This document shows, one piece after another, positions 2,754 through 32,522 of a DNA stretch of 33,679 nucleotides (position 1 is its first letter; each line of letters opens with the position of its first letter). The DNA comes from Planctomycetaceae bacterium (lineage in GTDB: Bacteria > Planctomycetota > Planctomycetia > Pirellulales > Pirellulaceae). The stretch is taken from the NCBI GenBank assembly GCA_015490875.1, contig WFWZ01000298.1, positions 1-33,679 on the forward strand, given 5' to 3'. A model generated the notes under the pieces. It worked only from the letters and a program-made list of their open reading frames with translations. It searched no databases and was not told the origin of the DNA. Position numbers and translations under genes: made by a program.

Positions 2754-3797
2754 TCACACGCGGCACGTTTCCGAATGAGCGCTGCGCATCGCGTCGGCGG
2801 CCGTTTCGGGGGCCAGCGTGTTGATCGTGCAGCCGGTAGCCCACTCGAAGCCGGCGACCGCCGTGCGCCTCGGCAGAACCTGAATCGACCAGTGGCTGGC
2901 CTCAGCGTGCGCCTCCATCAGCGGAGCCGTCTGCAGAATCACATTGTAGCTGCGCTCCTGGCCGCAAGGCCAATACGAACTCCAGCGAGCCAACGATTCT
3001 GCTAGTGACGCGAGTGTGTCGGAGTCGCTATCCGTGAAGTGAGTCGTGTGTTGTCGAGGGACGATCCAGCATTCTCCCGCCACGCGGCTGAACCATGGAC
3101 AGACGACGACGAACTCCGGATTAGCCTCGACAATCCGTTCCCCCTCGTGCAATTCCCATTCGAGCCAGTCGCAGGTAAGGCACCGGCCGGTCGCCTCGAG
3201 ATGTTGCGTGCAACGGGCTTCGCGCGCGGTGACCCAGGGTGGGATCTCTTGGAGCGCGAGCAACTGGCTGTGGGCATGCTCGATCGAGGCTCCGGCAGCC
3301 GGGCCTACATTTTTGAAAACGAGGCCGTAACGGAGTTGGTGAGCTTCGGCGGCCATGCGGAGCTGGTGCCGGTACGCCTGTAGGACCAGAGCCAGATGCG
3401 CTGGAGAAAACTCCGACCAATCGACGCGGTGATCGGCCGATTCGATGATGACTTCATGCACTCCTTCGGCTTCGCGCTGTTCTCCCCAGCGCGGGAACGG
3501 AGAAGCGTGGTTCGAGTGTGGCTTGTCCAGTTGGACGGGGCAGACGGCCGGGAACTTGTTGGGAACGACCCGAACATCCCAGGCGTAGGGAGAGTCCGGA
3601 AGACTCCACTGGGCGGTCGAGGGAGGTGTTTGGCCTTCGTTTTCGAGACAAAACGGGCAAGTGCTCTGGTTGCGGCGCACCGCGCGTGCCGCGAATTCGT
3701 TGGGGCGTCCTTCTCGTTCGGGAGCCACGATCGTCCACTGATCGCTGAAGGGGTCGTATCGGTAGTGGGGAGTGGAGTTGGCCGGCAGGGAGAGCAT
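2754..3797 (-). CDS. galT: Galactose-1-phosphate uridylyltransferase (GalT family)
   Basis: This enzyme exchanges UMP between UDP-glucose and galactose-1-phosphate (Leloir pathway). From ATG 3797 the protein is 347 residues. Cys47-Pro-Phe-Cys50 is the usual zinc pair, VVPNKFPA follows, then HEVIIESADH, and the histidine-triad-like active site HAHSQ (His174, His176, Gln178) after NVGPAAGASIE. The open frame runs upstream to 4211 but that extension overlaps glgA in another frame and has no family similarity, so the Met at MLSLPANS is chosen; its ribosome binding site is poor. It follows glgA on the same strand after 71 bases and probably shares its transcript. Related ADP-glucose phosphorylases look alike, so substrate specificity is not settled. 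Confidence 0.88.
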   Translation of the reverse strand: MLSLPANSTPHYRYDPFSDQWTIVAPEREGRPNEFAARAVRRNQSTCPFCLENEGQTPPSTAQWSLPDSPYAWDVRVVPNKFPAVCPVQLDKPHSNHASPFPRWGEQREAEGVHEVIIESADHRVDWSEFSPAHLALVLQAYRHQLRMAAEAHQLRYGLVFKNVGPAAGASIEHAHSQLLALQEIPPWVTAREARCTQHLEATGRCLTCDWLEWELHEGERIVEANPEFVVVCPWFSRVAGECWIVPRQHTTHFTDSDSDTLASLAESLARWSSYWPCGQERSYNVILQTAPLMEAHAEASHWSIQVLPRRTAVAGFEWATGCTINTLAPETAADAMRSAHSETCRV

Positions 3798-3868
3798 CGG
3801 TTTCTCGGGGGAATGGAGGATCGTGGGAAGTTGTCGGGGAGGGGGAACCACGCGCGACGGGCGCAGTT

Positions 3869-5371
3869 TCACCGGGGGTGCTGAGTTCCCAGGCGGCGCC
3901 GGTGTTCGGCGCACGTCTGCTGATACAGGGCATCGTATTCTCGAGCGCTTCGAGCCCAGGACCAGTCTTGGCGCATGCCGGTATCGACGAGTTGCTTCCA
4001 GACGTCGGGGTCGTCGCGGTAACACGTGACGGCGCGCTGCAAGGCGGCGGTCAGGGCCTCGGTCGAGTAGTGATGGAAGTGGAAGCCGGTGGCACTTCGA
4101 GCGGCCAGGGTTTGGGGAGTGACGTCGATGATCGTGTCGATCAGTCCGCCCGTGGCATGGACGATGGGAACGGTTCCATAGCGAAGGCTGTAGAGTTGGT
4201 TGAGCCCGCATGGTTCGTAACGGCTGGCCATGACGAAGATGTCGGCGCCGGCTTCGATGCGATGCGCTTGAGCTTCATCGAAGGCGAGCGTCACGTGGAG
4301 CCGATCGGGATGGGCCTGCATCAGTTGGCGGAGGCGTCGTTCGATGGCCGGATCGCCCGAGCCGAGGACGATCCACTGGAGGTCGGACGAAGCCAGTTGT
4401 TGTTCCAATAGGGGAAGGGTGATCTCCCATCCCTTTTGCGAGGCCAGGCGACCGATGAGTCCGATGAGGGGACGTCGCGGCTCGACAGCCAACCCGCTGG
4501 CCTGTTGCAGGGCGGCTCTGCAGGCCGCTTTGCCTTGTTGCCAGGTATCAGCGTCGTAGGTCTGCGCGAGATGAGCGTCGGTCGCCGGATTCCAGTGGTC
4601 GGTGTCGATGCCGTTCACGATGCCGGTCAAGACGTCGGCTCGGTGACGCAGCACATCGGAGAGTCCGCACCCCAAAGGCTCGCTTTGGATCTCCTCGGCA
4701 TAGGTCGGACTGACGGTGCTGAGCCGGTCGGCGAAGACGATCCCGGTCTTCAGCAGGTTCAGGTCGCCGTGGAACTCCATCTGCTTCCAGTTGAAGTACT
4801 TCCAGTCGATGCCCGTCAGCAGCATGTCCCAGTGCCAGAATCGGCCTTGGTAGGCCAGGTTGTGGATGGTGAGGAGCGTGGCGGTCTCGGCGAAGGGACG
4901 GTGGTGGCCGTAGAGCAATTCGCGGTAGGCGGGGATCAGGCCGGTCTGCCAGTCGTGGCAATGCAGCAGATCGACGGGGCGGTCCATCTGCACGAGTCCT
5001 TCCATGACGGCTCGGCAGAAGAAGACGAAACGCTCGCAGTTGTCTTGATAGTCCCGGCCGTGCTCGCCGTACAGTTGCGGGCGGTCGTAGTAGTCGGGTT
5101 GGTCGACGAGCCAGACGGTGACCTGGCTCTCGGGAAGTCGGCTCCGGAGGAGTCGGCCGCCGACGTGTTTGGAGGCGATGGGGATGTCCAGCTCGTAGTC
5201 GGTAACGTCGGCGGCGGGGCCCGACTCGAGAGCCTCCCGGTAGGCGGGGAGGAAGAGTTGGACGTCGTGGCCGAGGCGTTCCATTTCGCGCGGCAGGGCG
5301 CCCACCACATCGGCGAGCCCCCCCGTCTTGGCGAAAGGGACGGCTTCGCTGGCTGCGAAGACGATGTTCAC
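3869..5371 (-). CDS. glgA: Glycogen synthase (ADP-glucose dependent, GT5)
   Basis: GlgA elongates alpha-1,4-glucan from ADP-glucose. The 500-residue protein opens with [18 protein letters not shown] and continues LADVVGALP, the KTGGL nucleotide-sugar loop of bacterial starch/glycogen synthases. The second Rossmann domain contains [13 protein letters not shown] and [18 protein letters not shown], with the conserved Glu of the EPCGL block, then [16 protein letters not shown]. Length and motif order are normal and complete. It is the first gene of a glgA-galT minus-strand pair and is divergent from the ECF sigma operon. No clear promoter was found in the 278-base divergent gap. Confidence 0.96.
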
Positions 5372-5649: not shown

Positions 5650-6234
5650 GTGGACGAACTAGCAGTGAAGATCGACGTCGACGAAGTAGTGCGCGAGTAT
5701 TTCGACCGGATCCACCGGGCCGCCCTCGTGCTGACGGGCAACCCCTGGGATGCGGACGACCTGGCTCAGGAAACGTTCCTGGTGTTGGCACGGCAACCGG
5801 AGCGGTTTTCCGGACGGAGCCGGATCTTTACGTGGCTTTATGGGATCTTGCTCAACCTCGAGCGTCGCGAGCGGCGGCGCCGTTCGACGCGGCAGCGTGG
5901 ACTTCGGGTCGTCTCCGAGCGGCAACGGGACGAAGGGCGATGCGAGGTCCCAGCGGGTGATCACCTGGAGGTGGACGAGTGGCGAGCCGGCTTGTGGGGT
6001 CAGGTGGCTCGGTTACCCGACGGCCAGCGCCAAGCTTTGGTCTTGCGGTTCAGCGAAGGGCTGACGTACGAGGAAATCGCCCAGGCGCTTGAAATCCCCT
6101 TGGGGACCGTCAAGAGCCGCCTTTTCCATGGGCTGAACAACCTGCGGAAGTTGATGGGCGAAGAGGGGAGTCGTGGCGAGTGGATGAGCGGGCGGCCGGC
6201 CGAGGACGTGTTGCGAGCGGCACAAAGCGGGTGA
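5650..6234 (+). CDS. ECF-type RNA polymerase sigma factor
   Basis: This is a sigma70 family, group 4 (ECF) sigma factor of about 194 residues. Region 2 covers YFDRIHRAALVLTGN, DADDLAQETFLVLA and RIFTWLYGILLNLERR. A variable acidic linker follows, and region 4 contains LPDGQRQALVLRF and EGLTYEEIAQALEIPLGTVKSRL, a helix-turn-helix. The start is not certain. GTG 5650 and GTG 5665 both follow the purine-rich GGAAGAGGAG (5641-5650), while ATG 5587 has no ribosome binding site and overlaps a TACAAT. It is the first gene of a five-gene plus-strand cluster; the next start lies 7 bases after its stop, which suggests that its partner is the membrane protein downstream. Confidence 0.9.
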   Translation: MDELAVKIDVDEVVREYFDRIHRAALVLTGNPWDADDLAQETFLVLARQPERFSGRSRIFTWLYGILLNLERRERRRRSTRQRGLRVVSERQRDEGRCEVPAGDHLEVDEWRAGLWGQVARLPDGQRQALVLRFSEGLTYEEIAQALEIPLGTVKSRLFHGLNNLRKLMGEEGSRGEWMSGRPAEDVLRAAQSG

Positions 6235-6241
6235 CGACATC

Positions 6242-6739
6242 ATGAGACGGCAAGATGGCATATGGGCGGACGAGTCCGAGCTGAAAGAGGGTCCAGTGGT
6301 GGACAGTGCATGTCTTCCCGAAGATCTGGCGCAATTGGGAGTGACACTCCAACGGCAGGCGGAGGAGCTTTATCATCGCTACCCGGCTCCCGAACCTGAT
6401 CCGGCGATCGGCGCCGTAGCTGCGGCGGTTGGTCACCGGAGGCGGACTCGGTGGCCAGGTGTGGCTGCTGCGGTGCTGGCTGCGATCGCGATAGGCGGAA
6501 TATGGTGGTGGAGCGCCTCGGGAAATCGAGCCGTCGACAGCGTTGGGGTGGCGACACGTCGAAACGTCCCCGCGACGGTGGCTTCCCGCGAGACTGAGTC
6601 GGTTGCTCCCGTCGCGTCGACACTTCCGTCGGAATCGTCATGGGACGAGGCTTGGGCGCTTTACGTTTCGAGTCCCGAGTTGGAAGCCGTGCTCGATTTG
6701 GCGGATGACGAGGCAACACCGCTGCGTGTCGGCTTTTGA
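6242..6739 (+). CDS. Single-pass membrane protein, candidate anti-sigma factor
   Basis: The 165-residue protein has a hydrophilic N-terminal part (1-70), one strong membrane segment (about 71-91, ending in IWWW) and a Ser/Thr/Ala-rich C-terminal part ending in a short acidic region. The arginines before the segment (GHRRRTR) predict an inside N-terminus. It starts 7 bases after the ECF sigma stop, which is where anti-sigma factors usually sit. I see no HxxxCxxC zinc motif, so it is not a classical ZAS-domain anti-sigma. The role is therefore inferred from context and topology only. It could also be an unrelated small membrane subunit of the downstream proteins. Confidence 0.75.
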   Translation: MRRQDGIWADESELKEGPVVDSACLPEDLAQLGVTLQRQAEELYHRYPAPEPDPAIGAVAAAVGHRRRTRWPGVAAAVLAAIAIGGIWWWSASGNRAVDSVGVATRRNVPATVASRETESVAPVASTLPSESSWDEAWALYVSSPELEAVLDLADDEATPLRVGF

Positions 6740-6778
6740 TTGAATACAGCGTTCTTCCCAGGATGACTTTTCGAGTTC

Positions 6779-8131
6779 ATGATTGCTCTGCGACAAAAAC
6801 CTGTCACATCGATGACGGCAACGGCCGCGGGGCGGGGGCTGGGGAGCATCCTGACGCGGGGCCGGCTTTGGCTGGGCGCGGCGCTCGCGATCGGCATGCT
6901 CGGGATCATGGGAGGAGAAATCATCGAACTGTCGGGAGCCGAACTCCCGGACCTCGAGTCGGCGGCGCAACGACTGATCGGTGGTGTGGTGACGGTGCGC
7001 GTGCCGGTGCCGGGAACCGAGGATCGGGGAGCGCGCGTCGTGGTCTGTTCGGGCGCGATCGTTGGCCCAAGTTGGGTCGTGACCCCGGTCTTTGCGGGTG
7101 CCGATAGTCGAGTCAAGATCACGCTTCCTCAGGGAAGACAAGTGGAAGGGACCATCCGCGTCCTCGATGAATACTCGGGGTTGGCGCTGGTTGGCCTTGC
7201 CGATGAGGTGGAGGGCGCGTTGCCGCTGGCCGAGGATCTTCCCGCCGTTGGGGCTTGGGTGCTCAGCGCGGCCGGTTGGGGCGCGGAAAAGCCGGTCGTT
7301 TCGTTGGGGATCGTTTCGGGGCACGATCGAACCGATCCGGGACTCGCGTATCCTCCTCTCTTGCAGTGTGACATGCGTGCGGCGAGGACTTCGAGCGGTG
7401 CGGCCGTTGTCAATCGCAAGGGAGCGATGGTGGGGGTTGTGGTGGTCACGGGAACCGACCAGGCCACGGGATTCACGTTTGCCGTTCCGGTCGACCACGT
7501 GAGGCGTTTGCTGCGGATTGCCCGTGAGCGGCGGAATGTCCAGGGCATAGTGGTACTCAAGCGGCGACGGCCGGAAGTCGGGATGGTGCTTGATGGGCAA
7601 CAGGGTGAAGTCCGAGTTGCTCGCGTGACGGCGGGGAGTCCGGCAGATCGAGCTGGCATCCAGGTGGGGGATCGGGTCCTTGCTGTCAACGGGGTGCACA
7701 TCCGATCCGTCTATCAGGCGATTCGCCCGGTATTGATTCGCCAGCCCGGGGACCGGGTGGTGTTCACTTTGGAGCGGGGGGGGGAGCAGCGCGAGGTGGC
7801 TGTCGTGTTGGGAGGCGGTGTCGAAGTACCGCGCGGCCGTTGGAACGACATCGCGCAATTTGTGCGACCTAAGATTGAGTGGAAGCAGGTCGACGTTGCC
7901 CGTGGCATCCGGGCTCGCCGAAAGGTCGATCCCGCCGTGGCTGCTTCCAGTCCCGATTCCGACACTGAAGTGGCTCGCCGCCAGGCCCTGCTGGAAAAGA
8001 GCCTCGAACGATACCAGGCAGCCTTGAAGGCACTTCAAGAACGTCTCCAGAAGAGTGAAGCCGAGCGGAAAGAGTTGCAACGTCAAGTTCGGGAATTGCA
8101 GGCGGAGGTGAAACGCAAACACGATCGATAG
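6779..8131 (+). CDS. Catalytically degenerate HtrA/DegP-like protein with PDZ domain and C-terminal coiled coil
   Basis: The 450-residue protein has a signal anchor or signal peptide (about 28-46), a trypsin-2 fold (about 62-250), a PDZ domain (about 265-345, with SPADRAGIQVGDRVLAVNG) and a coiled coil (about 397-446). In the trypsin fold, the VTNNHV block is replaced by VTPVFA, so the catalytic His is Phe105. The DLAVL block is SGLALV, so the Asp is Gly134. The GNSGGP block is SSGAAV, keeping Ser206. With two of three residues gone it should not act as a serine protease, and a binding or sensing role is more likely. It lies 39 bases after the membrane protein and 14 before the arrestin-like gene. 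ATG 6812 is an alternative start; neither has a clear ribosome binding site. Confidence 0.88.
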   Translation: MIALRQKPVTSMTATAAGRGLGSILTRGRLWLGAALAIGMLGIMGGEIIELSGAELPDLESAAQRLIGGVVTVRVPVPGTEDRGARVVVCSGAIVGPSWVVTPVFAGADSRVKITLPQGRQVEGTIRVLDEYSGLALVGLADEVEGALPLAEDLPAVGAWVLSAAGWGAEKPVVSLGIVSGHDRTDPGLAYPPLLQCDMRAARTSSGAAVVNRKGAMVGVVVVTGTDQATGFTFAVPVDHVRRLLRIARERRNVQGIVVLKRRRPEVGMVLDGQQGEVRVARVTAGSPADRAGIQVGDRVLAVNGVHIRSVYQAIRPVLIRQPGDRVVFTLERGGEQREVAVVLGGGVEVPRGRWNDIAQFVRPKIEWKQVDVARGIRARRKVDPAVAASSPDSDTEVARRQALLEKSLERYQAALKALQERLQKSEAERKELQRQVRELQAEVKRKHDR

Positions 8132-8145
8132 AAAGGAATGCACAC

Positions 8146-8577
8146 GTGGCCGTGGATGTGGCGATCGAATTGGATGAGCCGGATTGGGCGGATCCCGAGT
8201 GGAGTCGCCATTACGTCGCTGGCAACATCTTGTCGGGTGTCGTGCGGGTCCGGAGTGACCAGGAGGTCAATTGCCGTGGCGTGCACTGCGTCGTGGGATG
8301 GCATACCGAAGGCCGAGGCGACAAAGACGAAGGGATTGTCTGGAGCAAGACATTGCACGAGGGGCCGCTCTCGGGCGAACAGACCTTTCCCTTTCGCCTC
8401 ACTCTCCCGCTGAACGGTCCCATTAGTTATTCCGGTCACTACATTCGCATCGTTTGGACGGTCAACGCCGTCGTCGCGCTCGATTGGCAAAAGGATCCGT
8501 CGGCTGAAGTGCTGTTCTTCCTCATGCCGGCACCTTTTGTAGAATCCGAACGCGACGAGAGCAGTTTGGCATCTTGA
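8146..8577 (+). CDS. Small arrestin-like domain protein
   Basis: The 143-residue protein has no signal peptide or membrane segment and looks like a single beta-sandwich. YVAGNILSGVVRV, LSGEQTFPFRLTLP and GPISYSGHYIRIVWTV resemble the arrestin N-like fold, also seen in Spo0M-type proteins. This is recognition by pattern, not a database result. GTG 8146 is chosen because AAAGGA lies 8 bases upstream; an ATG at 8138 is in another frame. It sits between the degenerate HtrA and a membrane protein that seems to carry a second arrestin-like domain, so the two may interact. Function is unknown. Confidence 0.8.
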   Translation: MAVDVAIELDEPDWADPEWSRHYVAGNILSGVVRVRSDQEVNCRGVHCVVGWHTEGRGDKDEGIVWSKTLHEGPLSGEQTFPFRLTLPLNGPISYSGHYIRIVWTVNAVVALDWQKDPSAEVLFFLMPAPFVESERDESSLAS

Positions 8578-8592
8578 GAAGGAGGTGGGGCG

Positions 8593-9834
8593 GTGCGGAC
8601 TCTGTCAGCAGGCTCGACGTTCGCTTGGGAAGTTCCTCGAGTTGCCGGGGCGGCTCAAGGCCATCGTTCTCTGATGATCTTCGGAGCCGTATTTGCGGGC
8701 TTTGCGCTGATGATCGGGTTGCCGATCTTCTTCGGCGGCAATGTGAAGGGGGCGGAGCTGATCGGCTTTTTCGCCTTCCTGGGGCTGTTCGTGGGCGCCG
8801 GACTTGCCATCTTCTTTGCGGGGCTTTTCGTAGGACGCGGGCGAGCCACGGTGGTGATGAACGGTGATACGATCGTTTACGGCAAACGCCTGGGGCCGTT
8901 TTCGATGCGGCGCATTTTGAGGCTGGATGAGGGGGGCCGGTTCAAGATCGTCTCGGCACGCAGCCGGCGAGGAGCCTTGCTCGGCGCGCGCAATGTGGAA
9001 TACGAGTCGGCCTTGGGGGAGAGTACGGCTGTGGCGACGGAGGTGTCATCCGAGGATGCTCGCGCTTTGGCCGAGGCTCTGTCACAGGCGACGGGAAGGC
9101 GCTGGTTTGATACGACCGATGATTCGGCGATCGATGAGGTGCTCGATGCGGTCGACGACCAGGACGCGCGTCTTGCCCAGCGAGATCAACAGGTGAAGCT
9201 CGAGTACGATTCGCCACGGGTGCGCTGGCTGACACTTCTGATAACTGGAAGCGTGATCACCACCGCCACGATCGGCGGAGTGATCGTCTTCACACGGGCG
9301 ATCGGTAAGGTTCCCATCCCTGCCTGGATTTTCGGCGGGGTTTTCGCGCTGGTCGGTTTGGTCATCATCGGCGCGGGGGTCTATCAGCTCCTCGTGGAAA
9401 AGCGATTCGAGGAGCCGGAACTGAAAGTGTCGGTCCATCCTCTCTTGTTGGGAGAGGATTTCACGGTGACGTACCGCCACCCGGTCCGAGCCAAGTTCTC
9501 TCACGGCGGCGCAACCTTGACACTCACGGCCGAAGAGCAAGCCCAATATCGGCGGGGGACCAACACCTACACGGTGACCAAGACGATCGTCGAGCAGACA
9601 CGGGAATTGGTTCCCGCCGGTTCCGTAGCGGCCGGCGACGCGTTGACGGGGGAGGCAACCTTCGAGGTGCCGTCCAGCGCGATGCACACGTTCGAAGCAT
9701 CGAATAACAAAGTTCTTTGGAAGTTGGCGCTGCGAGTCGACGTGCCCGGCTGGCCCGATTTTCGTGCCACGTACGCCTGTCGCGTGTTGCCTCGAGTCGC
9801 CCTTTCGGCCGAGCCCGCACCATCCGAGGCGTGA
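8593..9834 (+). CDS. Four-TM membrane protein with C-terminal arrestin-like domain
   Basis: The 413-residue protein has two membrane hairpins: helices at about 27-48 and 55-80, and again at about 215-237 and 243-267. A soluble stretch of about 130 residues between them contains beta-rich sequence such as VVMNGDTIVYGKRLGPFSMRRILRL. The C-terminal part (about 270-400) resembles an arrestin-like sandwich, with ELKVSVHPLLLGEDFTVTY and then GDALTGEATFEVP. GTG 8593 is preceded by a strong AAGGAGGTG. It ends the ECF sigma cluster and converges with the MFS gene. I do not recognise a named family. A membrane-anchored partner of the 143-residue arrestin-like protein is inference. Confidence 0.82.
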   Translation: MRTLSAGSTFAWEVPRVAGAAQGHRSLMIFGAVFAGFALMIGLPIFFGGNVKGAELIGFFAFLGLFVGAGLAIFFAGLFVGRGRATVVMNGDTIVYGKRLGPFSMRRILRLDEGGRFKIVSARSRRGALLGARNVEYESALGESTAVATEVSSEDARALAEALSQATGRRWFDTTDDSAIDEVLDAVDDQDARLAQRDQQVKLEYDSPRVRWLTLLITGSVITTATIGGVIVFTRAIGKVPIPAWIFGGVFALVGLVIIGAGVYQLLVEKRFEEPELKVSVHPLLLGEDFTVTYRHPVRAKFSHGGATLTLTAEEQAQYRRGTNTYTVTKTIVEQTRELVPAGSVAAGDALTGEATFEVPSSAMHTFEASNNKVLWKLALRVDVPGWPDFRATYACRVLPRVALSAEPAPSEA

Positions 9835-12004: not shown

Positions 12005-13474
12005 ATGGCCATGGTTATCCGGCGTTGGTTGGTCGTGAAGGGAGTTTTCTTCGCTTTAGGGCTTGGTTCCCTCACCTGCGTCGCGGATGAACAGCTCGTC
12101 AAGCTGATCGACAAGACCAAGCCGGCGGTTGTTTCGGTGCGCACTGACGACGGCCTGGGATCTGGCTTCATTGTCGATGCGGACCTGGTGGTTACGAATT
12201 ACCACGTCATCAAAGGGGCGTCCGCTGCGACAGTCAAACGCGTCGACGGAGTTACTATCAAGGTTGAAGGCCTCCGATTCATCGATCCTCAGCGAGATAT
12301 CGCTGTCTTGCATGTCCCGGCCATCGGTCGCGGTATCGCACCGCTTTCGTTGGCCCAGGAAAGCCCCCGTCAAGGGCAGGATGTCATCGCGATGGGGAAT
12401 CCGCTCGGTTTCGAGTTCAGCGTGACGCGGGGTATCGTCAGCGCGGTGCGTACTGCGGAGTCACTCAAGTCGATACTTCCCGGCATTGATCTGGCTGGCA
12501 CCTGGATCCAGACCGACGTGGCCATTTCGCCGGGGAACAGTGGTGGACCGTTGGTACTGATGACCGGTCAGGTGGCGGGCATGAACACGTTTTCGCGCCG
12601 CGGCAGCCAGAATCTCAATCTCGCAATATCGTCGGTTGACATCGCCACAGCCGTCAAGACAGCTAAGTCCCGAAGTCCCCAACCTCTGAGTACAGCTTCC
12701 GAGAAGGCGGTAGTCAACAACGATGATACTCAATCGAAGATCGCCGAGCTAATCATCGCATCCATTTCGAAGTCGATCGCGAAGCTGTCTGACGCTCAAC
12801 TGAAAGAACTCACCGACCTCGACAGCCAGCGTCTGAACACTCTGCTGACACCTCAGTCGATCCACGCCGTAGGAGAAAAAACAGTCGCTCGCATTCAGGG
12901 AAGAGCCACGTTGGTACAGGTCTTACCCTCTTCGCTGCTTGTGATGATCGACGGTGCGATCTGCGAGATCTTTACGGAAAGGGCTCGAGAGATTGGAGCC
13001 AAGACTGCGGGGCGAGTGATCACAGGCCTGCGAATCGATGGAACCTACGTGGTTGGGACGGCGACCCCTTACAAAACTACTGCCGGAGATATCAAGTACG
13101 CGCTCGCCTTGGTTCCCCTTGCCGAGTTGAAATCCGAATACTGGAATAAAGACGTGGCCGCTTTCATCAGTAAGGAAATCGAGAAACGAAAACTTGAGGA
13201 AGAGCGACAGCGAAACCAGGCTCTCGAACGAAGAGCCCAGAGGCTCAGGCGGGAGTTCACGGACGCGAGCGGCGTTTACTCTGTCGACGCGGTCGCCGTA
13301 GGCTATGACGGAACGACGGTACGACTCGTGCGAATGGACAATCGAAAGATCGTCAAAGTTGCCATAACGAAGTTGTCCGAGGCCGACCAAGAATGGGTCG
13401 ACAAGAACGCTACAGTCATCAAGTACGGTGGCAAGAAGCTGGAAGAATATCTCACCAAGTCGGCAAAGAAGTGA
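12005..13474 (+). CDS. Secreted trypsin-like (HtrA-type S1C) serine protease with C-terminal SHD1 domain
   Basis: The 489-residue protein has a signal peptide (MAMVIRRWLVVKGVFFALGL, likely cut after Ala27) and a trypsin-2 domain with the full triad: His67 in VVTNYHV, Asp98 in RDIAVL and Ser179 in PGNSGGPLV. There is no PDZ domain. A middle region of unknown fold (about 215-390) leads to a charged helix (about 390-418) and an SHD1-type domain (about 418-470: GVYSVDAVAVGYDGTTVRLV, then KVAITKLSEADQEWV), an arrangement typical of planctomycetes. ATG 12005 follows GGAGGG by 7 bases. It is monocistronic and flanked on both sides by the GACGC-type repeats. It contrasts with the degenerate HtrA at 6779. 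Confidence 0.92.
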   Translation: MAMVIRRWLVVKGVFFALGLGSLTCVADEQLVKLIDKTKPAVVSVRTDDGLGSGFIVDADLVVTNYHVIKGASAATVKRVDGVTIKVEGLRFIDPQRDIAVLHVPAIGRGIAPLSLAQESPRQGQDVIAMGNPLGFEFSVTRGIVSAVRTAESLKSILPGIDLAGTWIQTDVAISPGNSGGPLVLMTGQVAGMNTFSRRGSQNLNLAISSVDIATAVKTAKSRSPQPLSTASEKAVVNNDDTQSKIAELIIASISKSIAKLSDAQLKELTDLDSQRLNTLLTPQSIHAVGEKTVARIQGRATLVQVLPSSLLVMIDGAICEIFTERAREIGAKTAGRVITGLRIDGTYVVGTATPYKTTAGDIKYALALVPLAELKSEYWNKDVAAFISKEIEKRKLEEERQRNQALERRAQRLRREFTDASGVYSVDAVAVGYDGTTVRLVRMDNRKIVKVAITKLSEADQEWVDKNATVIKYGGKKLEEYLTKSAKK

Positions 13475-30443: not shown

Positions 30444-32522
30444 ATGGGTAAGCAGTCGCTTCGGCGCAGATGGCGGTGGTCGGGCTGGGCATTGGCAGCG
30501 TTGTTGGCGACGACGGCGGTGGCTGTGTTGTCGCCTCGCGGCCAGACCGAGGTCACCGGTCCCGGGGTTCAGGACCGCAACGTGACGAGCATCGTCACGA
30601 CGATGATGCGGACGCAGCACGTCAGCCACCACCCGCTCGACGACGAGATTTCCGAACGCGCCGTCCATTTGCTGCTTGAGGCATTCGACGGGCGGAAACT
30701 CTACTTCTACCAGTCGGACATCGACGAGTTCCAGCGCTACCGGCATCAGCTCGACGACATGCTCAAGAAACGCGACACTTCCTTCGCGTATCTCGTCTAT
30801 CGCCGGTTCATGGAGCGTCTGGAGGAGCGTTCGAAGTGGATCGAGGATCTACTCAAGCAGGATTTCGACTACACGCGTCGCGAGTATCTCGATACCGACT
30901 TCGACAATCTTCGGTATCCGACTAACGCTGAAGAGGCGAAGGAGCGTTGGCGCAAGCGGATCAAGTATGACCTGTTGTTCCTCGAGGTGATCGACAAAAA
31001 GTCTCCCAAAGAGGCTCGCGAGCAGATCGCGCGCCGCTACCGCAACATCCGTCGCCGCTGGAAGCAGTTCGACAACAATGATTTGCTCGAAGTTTTCTTA
31101 ACCTCGGTGACGAACGCCTATGACCCGCACACGTCGTACATGTCGGCGCCGTCCTATGAAAACTTCAAGATTCAGCTCTCCTTGCGACTCAACGGCATCG
31201 GTGCCCAACTCAAAGACGAAGACGGCTACGCGGTCATTGCGAAAATCATTCCCGGCGGTGCGGCCGACAAGCACGGGAAGCTGAAGGCAGGTGACCGGAT
31301 CGTGTCGGTCGGCCAGGGCGAAGAGGGAGAGATGGTCGACGTCGTCGACATGAAGTTGGACGACATTGTGAAGATGATCCGGGGCAAAGCGGGGACGATC
31401 GTCCGTTTGGGAGTCGTACCGGCTTCCGGCGGCGAGAAGCAGATCTACACGATTACGCGAGCTCGGATCGAATTAGCCGATAGCGCGGCCAAAGGAAAGG
31501 TGTTCGACGTACCGCATCCCGATGGTGGAGAGCCGATTCAGATCGGCGTGATCGATCTTCCGAGTTTTTATTTCGACATGGAGGGAGCTCGGAACGGCGT
31601 GGCCAACTACCGAAGCACGACGGCGGACGTGCGGCGCATTTTGCAAGAGTTTGAAGGAAAAGGCGTCGACGTCGTGGTGCTTGATTTGCGCAGCAACGGT
31701 GGCGGCAGCTTGACCGAGGCGATCAATTTGACGGGGCTCTTCATCGACCGCGGTCCCGTTGTTCAGGTCCGGGATTCGGCGAACCGCGTTGATGCTTTGG
31801 AGGACGAAAACGAGGGAATGGCGTGGAGCGGCCCGTTGTTGGTGCTGACGAGCAAGCTGAGTGCCAGTGCCAGCGAGATTCTGGCAGGGGCGATTCAGGA
31901 CTACGGGCGCGGCTTGATCGTGGGCGATGAGACGACTCACGGGAAGGGCACGGTTCAGACGTTGCAGGATTTGGACGCGTGGCTTCTGGGGCGAGCTCGG
32001 CACCGTCCTTCCCAGTTGGGGGCACTCAAGATCACGACGGCGCAGTTCTATCGGCCCGGCGGGGACAGCACCCAAAAGCGCGGCGTCCTCGCTGATGTTG
32101 TCCTCCCTTCCTTGACCACGCACATGGATATCGGCGAGGCGGACTTGGAGTATGCGATCGACTTCGATCGCATCCAGCCTGCTGAGTTCCAGCGCTACGC
32201 TATGGTGACTCGAGACATCGTGCGGAAGTTGATCGAGCGTTCTCAGAGCCGGCGGCAGAAGTCCGAGGACTTCATCAAGCTCAACCGGCGTATCGCCGAG
32301 TACCTCGAGCAGAAGGCGAAGAAGAAAATCGCACTCAACCGCGAAGAGTACATTGCAGCTCACAAAGAGTTCAACGCTCGCAAAGCCGAGGAAGACCAGT
32401 TCGAGAAGCAGATCAATCCGGATGAGACGATTCGCCGCGACTATTATTTGAACGAAGTCTTCCAGATTGGTGTCGACTACCTGAGGGAACTCGAGAAACT
32501 CCATCTGGCTCGGCGCCGTTGA
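30444..32522 (+). CDS. prc: Carboxy-terminal processing (tail-specific) protease Prc, S41 family
   Basis: The 692-residue periplasmic protease has an N-terminal signal or anchor (WSGWALAALLATTAVAVLS), an N-terminal helical domain, a PDZ domain (about 245-330, GGAADKHGKLKAGDRIVSVG), and the S41 core with VVVLDLRSNGGGSLTEAI, the serine block LTSKLSASASEILAGAIQDY and the lysine block ETTHGKGTVQ. A C-terminal helical region follows (AEEDQFEKQINPDETIRRDY). Length is close to E. coli Prc. ATG 30444 is preceded by GGGAAGG. It degrades or trims proteins with accessible C-termini; in bacteria it often controls cell-wall hydrolases. It converges with the metallo-hydrolase 31 bases downstream. Confidence 0.95.
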   Translation: MGKQSLRRRWRWSGWALAALLATTAVAVLSPRGQTEVTGPGVQDRNVTSIVTTMMRTQHVSHHPLDDEISERAVHLLLEAFDGRKLYFYQSDIDEFQRYRHQLDDMLKKRDTSFAYLVYRRFMERLEERSKWIEDLLKQDFDYTRREYLDTDFDNLRYPTNAEEAKERWRKRIKYDLLFLEVIDKKSPKEAREQIARRYRNIRRRWKQFDNNDLLEVFLTSVTNAYDPHTSYMSAPSYENFKIQLSLRLNGIGAQLKDEDGYAVIAKIIPGGAADKHGKLKAGDRIVSVGQGEEGEMVDVVDMKLDDIVKMIRGKAGTIVRLGVVPASGGEKQIYTITRARIELADSAAKGKVFDVPHPDGGEPIQIGVIDLPSFYFDMEGARNGVANYRSTTADVRRILQEFEGKGVDVVVLDLRSNGGGSLTEAINLTGLFIDRGPVVQVRDSANRVDALEDENEGMAWSGPLLVLTSKLSASASEILAGAIQDYGRGLIVGDETTHGKGTVQTLQDLDAWLLGRARHRPSQLGALKITTAQFYRPGGDSTQKRGVLADVVLPSLTTHMDIGEADLEYAIDFDRIQPAEFQRYAMVTRDIVRKLIERSQSRRQKSEDFIKLNRRIAEYLEQKAKKKIALNREEYIAAHKEFNARKAEEDQFEKQINPDETIRRDYYLNEVFQIGVDYLRELEKLHLARRR

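Follow-up and report, generated by a model that had tools for sequence, protein, structure and literature searches.

The first three genes of a closely spaced five-gene run probably encode an envelope-signaling unit, a variant of the RpoE/RseA/DegS arrangement in which a pseudo-protease would grip the C-terminus of a single-pass membrane protein. Judging from the sequences, we put the probability of this reading at roughly two in three. The usual explanation for envelope-stress sigma factors is that an anti-sigma factor is proteolyzed, and a family that combines a dead HtrA with a PDZ ligand on the membrane partner points to signaling by docking, in a bacterial group whose envelope signaling is little studied. 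The five neighboring genes are two unrelated, separately conserved sets, which we term module 1 and module 2. Their features in the window (the whole stretch of DNA that was analyzed, 33,679 nucleotides) are as follows.

5650–6234, + strand: gene 1, ECF sigma factor (sigma), 194 aa, GTG start, module 1
6242–6739, + strand: gene 2, single-pass membrane protein (mem), 165 aa, candidate anti-sigma factor, module 1
6728–6736, + strand: codons for VGF at the end of mem, its PDZ-ligand-type motif (hydrophobic-[S/G/A]-[F/I/L/M]-COOH)
6779–8131, + strand: gene 3, secreted HtrA-like pseudo-protease with PDZ domain (pdz), 450 aa, module 1
8146–8577, + strand: gene 4, single arrestin-fold lobe, 143 aa, GTG start, module 2
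8593–9834, + strand: gene 5, membrane protein, 413 aa, GTG start, module 2

All five open reading frames are in frame on the forward strand, separated by gaps of 7, 39, 14, and 15 bases, and an ORF check returned the coordinates and gaps exactly as the initial annotation had given them. Because every one of the five proteins has homologs in other genomes, none of the reading frames is spurious. No terminator-like site was found between the five genes on the forward strand, and genes 4 and 5 each have a strong Shine-Dalgarno sequence upstream, which makes co-transcription of the run plausible in this genome; genes 4 and 5 are possibly co-transcribed with the sigma-mem-pdz triad by chance of position. 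Divergent from the triad lie a galT-like gene and glgA (2754–5371), and glgA and/or galT also adjoin the triad at five other loci (L080, L082, L083, L084, and L085). Elsewhere, the window encodes an HtrA-type protease with an intact catalytic triad, fused to an SHD1 domain (12005–13474), and a tail-specific protease with TSP_NTD, PDZ, S41, and DUF3340 domains, a possible reader of hydrophobic C-termini (30444–32522). Gene content, for example the SHD1-domain HtrA, points to Planctomycetota as the source of the DNA.

The identification of gene 1 as an ECF sigma factor is borne out by Pfam (Sigma70_r2, 3.5e-12; Sigma70_r4, 4.3e-15) and by NCBIfam. The protein is 75% identical to its counterpart in a congener and 45 to 66% identical to those in other families. 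Its orthologs are patchily distributed: a search of 396 genomes of the order at E 1e-40 found them in 31, and a class-wide sample searched at E 1e-38 yielded three more distant loci. As mem is too divergent to serve as a BLAST query, giving mostly noise outside the true loci, its orthologs were located through sigma. The order sigma-mem-pdz is kept at 28 of the 32 loci examined and at all three of the more distant ones.

The description of gene 2 as a single-pass membrane protein also stands, and its product has no significant Pfam or NCBIfam family. In alignments, mem consists of a cytoplasmic N-terminus of ~72 aa, one transmembrane (TM) segment near residue 73, and a periplasmic tail. Across the 32 loci, lysine and arginine residues around this segment number 119 on the N-terminal flank versus 45 on the C-terminal flank; the N-in/C-out signal is present in 30 of the 32 proteins and reversed in none. 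With positive residues more numerous before the TM segment than after it, the C-terminus is placed outside the cytoplasm. The orthologs are very divergent (about 17 to 37% identity to mem of the window), with a short conserved helical stretch, LxxLxxQLxxDAxxLxxxYPA.

Class I anti-sigma factors (ASDI) resemble mem in that their gene lies next to that of the ECF sigma factor, that their N-terminal part is cytoplasmic, and that they often have one TM segment (PMC7406223). Unlike these proteins, mem gave no match to an anti-sigma family and no recognizable ASDI domain in searches of Pfam, NCBIfam, and PDB profiles, and the HxxxCxxC zinc motif, which occurs in part of the ASDI family, is absent from all 32 mem proteins. 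Its N-terminal part of ~70 aa is also short relative to the ASDI average of 101 aa (PMC7406223). With neither a profile match nor the zinc motif, the anti-sigma assignment draws on position and topology, and on these grounds mem is probably a membrane anti-sigma factor. The same two absences would suit a protein that anchors sigma to the membrane or acts as its co-activator, or one that is a mere docking protein co-transcribed with it. We consider such a role unlikely, if still a serious contender, because mem is encoded right behind the ECF gene, has an N-inside single-pass topology, and carries a short helical stretch typical of membrane anti-sigma factors.

Gene 3 had been read as a degenerate HtrA, and both the protein itself and its family agree with that description. 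The pdz sequence matches Pfam Trypsin_2 (4e-11) and PDZ_6 (1.4e-13), its nearest solved structures are DegP, DegQ, DegS, and AlgW, and pdz proteins begin with a hydrophobic segment, as for export. A single PDZ domain (residues about 260–343) is followed by a C-terminal coiled coil (residues about 390–447, from a coiled-coil profile). With the window HtrA at 12005–13474, which keeps all three catalytic residues, as a control, the His and Asp of the catalytic triad are lost in pdz of the window and across the family, and the Ser is variable and often lost. The Asp position holds G, T, S, or N in every PDZ-type relative, and the lone H found near the His position, in the protein of locus L103, is an alignment neighbor. 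By its sequence, pdz is a catalytically dead HtrA relative throughout the family.

The C-terminus of mem is the feature that would tie it to this neighbor. In the window, the tail contains the motif SSPELEAVLDL and ends in RVGF; across the orthologs, an SxPELEGLLDL-like motif is followed by ~9 to 13 variable residues and then by a hydrophobic-small-hydrophobic-COOH end. The ends found are RVGF, RIGF, PISI, YLSI, RLSF, LISI, NISI, RLSI, RIAF, SLSF, and TIAF, together with QLSI, RVSL, DVSM, RVEI, SLSI, TLDL, AVSL, ALGI, and ELEI, and the three more distant loci have HLSL, EDVI, and DDTI. At all 31 loci with a pdz gene downstream, the last residue of mem is F, I, L, or M, and position −2 is V, I, or L in 28 of them, the three exceptions having D at −2 (GDII, EDVI, and DDTI). 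Leaving aside the three distant loci, 27 of 28 mem proteins have such residues at both positions. The binomial figures for these counts take no account of relatedness; with one mem taken per GTDB family, 9 of 10 still have both. Among 196 long background ORFs from the same loci, 15 end in F, I, L, or M, and 5 have both positions. C-termini that are hydrophobic at positions 0 and −2, such as YxF and WVF, are the ones recognized by the PDZ domains of DegS and AlgW (PMC8103513, PMC8545111). By its sequence, the end of mem is a PDZ-ligand-type C-terminus, a candidate ligand for the adjacent pdz protein.

The main evidence that mem and pdz join through this C-terminus comes from the four loci at which no pdz gene adjoins sigma and mem (L096, L104, L110, and L111). 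There, mem is without the ligand end and has a coiled coil at its C-terminus instead. A profile of the pdz coiled coil matches all four of these fused proteins (E 9e-11 to 7e-8, a similarity with some compositional bias) and no other mem; among background ORFs, the only match below E = 1 was pdz of the window itself. No pdz ortholog was found in genomes G051, G053, and G070 at E 1e-12, and G022 has just two weak HtrA-like matches (33 and 32% identity); G068, from the same family as G051, has a pdz ortholog. The ligand is present or absent along with its PDZ partner, and the fusion bypasses both, which argues that the two proteins would be joined by way of the mem tail. The link between pdz and the sigma/mem pair, which the initial annotation had proposed, is strongly supported by the conserved gene order and by the conserved PDZ-ligand C-terminus of mem, which gives way to another ending at loci that lack a pdz gene.

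Gene order, a dead active site, a topology signal, a conserved C-terminus, and a coiled-coil fusion where pdz is absent form the sequence basis of the unit, and we infer its PDZ binding, anti-sigma activity, signal, and output. In the mechanism that we propose, the cytoplasmic part of mem probably binds sigma and keeps it inactive. The periplasmic C-terminus of mem would dock into the PDZ domain of the dead pdz protein, and this docking would tether the pdz coiled coil to mem. A competing hydrophobic C-terminus, which in the DegS and AlgW systems is, for example, that of an outer-membrane protein that has misfolded, might then undo the docking, as might loss of the target of the coiled coil, and undocking would alter the state of sigma. 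A more far-reaching version, to which we would give somewhat less than even odds, is that of a non-proteolytic ECF pathway. The pseudo-protease would here be a reversible plug-in sensor whose PDZ domain binds the C-terminal carboxylate of mem and in this way links a periplasmic coiled coil to sigma, with envelope damage read through hydrophobic C-termini that compete for the PDZ groove, and some lineages would have hard-wired the coiled coil onto mem and lost the PDZ sensor.

A hydrophobic C-terminus could alternatively be a degradation signal. Tail-specific Prc/S41 proteases read non-polar C-termini, and the tail of mem might be a degron for such an enzyme that is shielded by pdz, so that uncapping would expose mem to proteolysis and free sigma, in a pathway that is still proteolytic. 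This proposal agrees with the conserved mem tail and the dead HtrA, and the window does encode a PDZ-containing Tsp/S41 protease (at 30444–32522). The gene for that protease lies outside the sigma cluster, however, and the fused forms of mem do without the hydrophobic tail although sigma and mem are retained at those loci, so we regard the degron as a doubtful explanation and favor docking through the mem C-terminus.

A unit of this kind has clear counterparts in RpoE/RseA/DegS of E. coli and AlgU/MucA/AlgW of Pseudomonas, each of which likewise joins an ECF sigma factor to a single-pass membrane partner and a periplasmic PDZ protein of the HtrA fold. The sigma-mem-pdz triad differs from both: throughout the family its protease is dead, and its candidate ligand is the C-terminus of the membrane partner of sigma itself rather than that of an outer-membrane protein or MucE. 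It also adds a coiled coil, which is able to replace PDZ domain and ligand by direct fusion. Because the active site is absent, the triad is not a member of the RpoE/RseA/DegS type as that type is defined by proteolytic activation. In the literature that we searched, the coverage of which excludes many subscription papers, no publication connects an ECF pathway to an HtrA that is catalytically dead.

The two genes downstream of pdz were also assigned to this signaling system by the initial annotation, and here the comparison of genomes leads elsewhere. We searched for the arrestin-like pair (genes 4 and 5) in 60 related genomes, 58 of which have a relative of gene 5, and compared 22 loci; none of the other pair loci among these has relatives of genes 1 to 3. 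The single same-genus genome compared (G001) has the triad in the order sigma-mem-pdz on contigs C314 and C327, with the contig break inside pdz. As in the window, glgA adjoins the triad on the left; on the right, with one gene in between, comes an MFS gene that shares 86% identity with that of the window. The slot between pdz and the MFS gene is occupied by a dihydroorotate-dehydrogenase-like gene (L081:10982–12031; Pfam DHO_dh, 2.6e-20) with no close counterpart in the genome of the window (best match 34%). No arrestin-like pair is found in that slot, and the pair of G001 is on a separate contig, C345. The two sets lie on different contigs in about a dozen genomes (for example, G004, G019, G022, G032, G037, and G044, as well as G045, G046, G051, G053, and G055), and in the single-contig genome G041 they are ~578 kb apart.

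Because the congener and other genomes keep the two sets apart, the five-gene cluster is best described as a local adjacency of two modules, seen in this genome only. Of the proposed single system, the sigma/mem/pdz link is strongly supported, by its conserved order and PDZ-ligand C-terminus, whereas membership of the arrestin-like genes fails, as a check for five-gene synteny in relatives placed the pair at another locus in G001 and roughly a dozen further genomes. Close spacing on one strand, strong ribosome-binding sites at genes 4 and 5, and the lack of a terminator between the genes would fit a single signaling system, with the arrestin-like proteins serving the sigma/PDZ unit as scaffolds at the membrane. 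We nevertheless find it very improbable, given that the triad occupies this locus in G001 with no pair beside it, that the sets are separated in G041 and the other genomes, and that the pair has a conserved partner of its own, a P-loop ATPase. Least probable of all is an assembly error at the junction between pdz and the pair, with the cluster absent from the cell: the draft genome has 429 contigs and departs from the neighbors seen in the congener exactly there, but the MFS gene beyond the pair matches that of the congener in place and orientation, and GC is similar across the genes. An operon reading taken from a single genome can thus merge unrelated modules.

Within module 2, the label arrestin-like applies well to the 143-aa protein; for the 413-aa protein, the likeness of its C-terminal domain is suggestive. 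The former matches Pfam Arrestin_N (2.3e-8) and, among PDB profiles, TXNIP, ARRDC3, beta-arrestin, and VPS26. Its AF2 model (pLDDT 76, pTM 0.71) has Spo0M (5cl2, 5e-8), ARRDC3 (4r7x, 1e-7), and VPS26C (9au7, 6e-7) as its best Foldseek matches, with TXNIP also found. The protein shares one arrestin lobe with the Spo0M, Vps26, and alpha-arrestin clan (PMC2515105). It is a single lobe, in place of the two-lobe chain of arrestin, Vps26, and Spo0M, and its partner, unlike theirs, is a membrane protein of the DUF3592 family, usually together with a P-loop ATPase. The Pfam models of Spo0M type returned no sequence match to it.

The 413-aa protein has no significant Pfam or NCBIfam family, and a DUF3592 domain is not detectable in it. 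The domain (PF12158) is found at the N-terminus of 14 of 20 relatives, and the protein, 43% identical to that of the congener, is a divergent copy of this DUF3592/TM/C-terminal domain family. Its C-terminal domain, which is conserved among the relatives, bears a weak likeness to the arrestin lobe (hhalign E 0.0014 over 44 columns, probability 18%), and its AF2 model, built from two sequences, is too poor for use (pLDDT 45). A relative of gene 4 is near or fused to a relative of gene 5 at all 22 loci, with fusions at L036 and L041. These fusions suggest contact between the two domains, which perhaps make up a two-lobe arrestin in split form, and the second lobe might be supplied by the membrane partner.

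A small P-loop ATPase gene lies near the pair at 15 of the 22 loci, usually directly downstream, and carries conserved NPF...GPHGxGKSTLL and VDGYEQL motifs. It was not found beside the window copy, the pair on C345 of G001, or the pair of G045. The full set of DUF3592/TM protein, arrestin-lobe protein, and ATPase occurs at L022, L026–L037, L039, and L042, and our guess is a membrane-bound split arrestin with an ATPase partner. No published description of this set was found in the literature searched, in which, with the same limits of coverage as above, no paper joins arrestin or DUF3592 with the organism group of the window; the present analysis brings a widespread gene set to notice. PADLOC gave no defense-system match for the window proteins and at most a weak mad8 P-loop similarity for the ATPases. 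Viral contigs contained no relatives of the pair, and contigs of wider genomes contained one, in a Bdellovibrionales MAG (L022). The genome of the window itself has a second, canonical DUF3592/arrestin/ATPase copy on another contig (G000:C129; L042:7133–9481).
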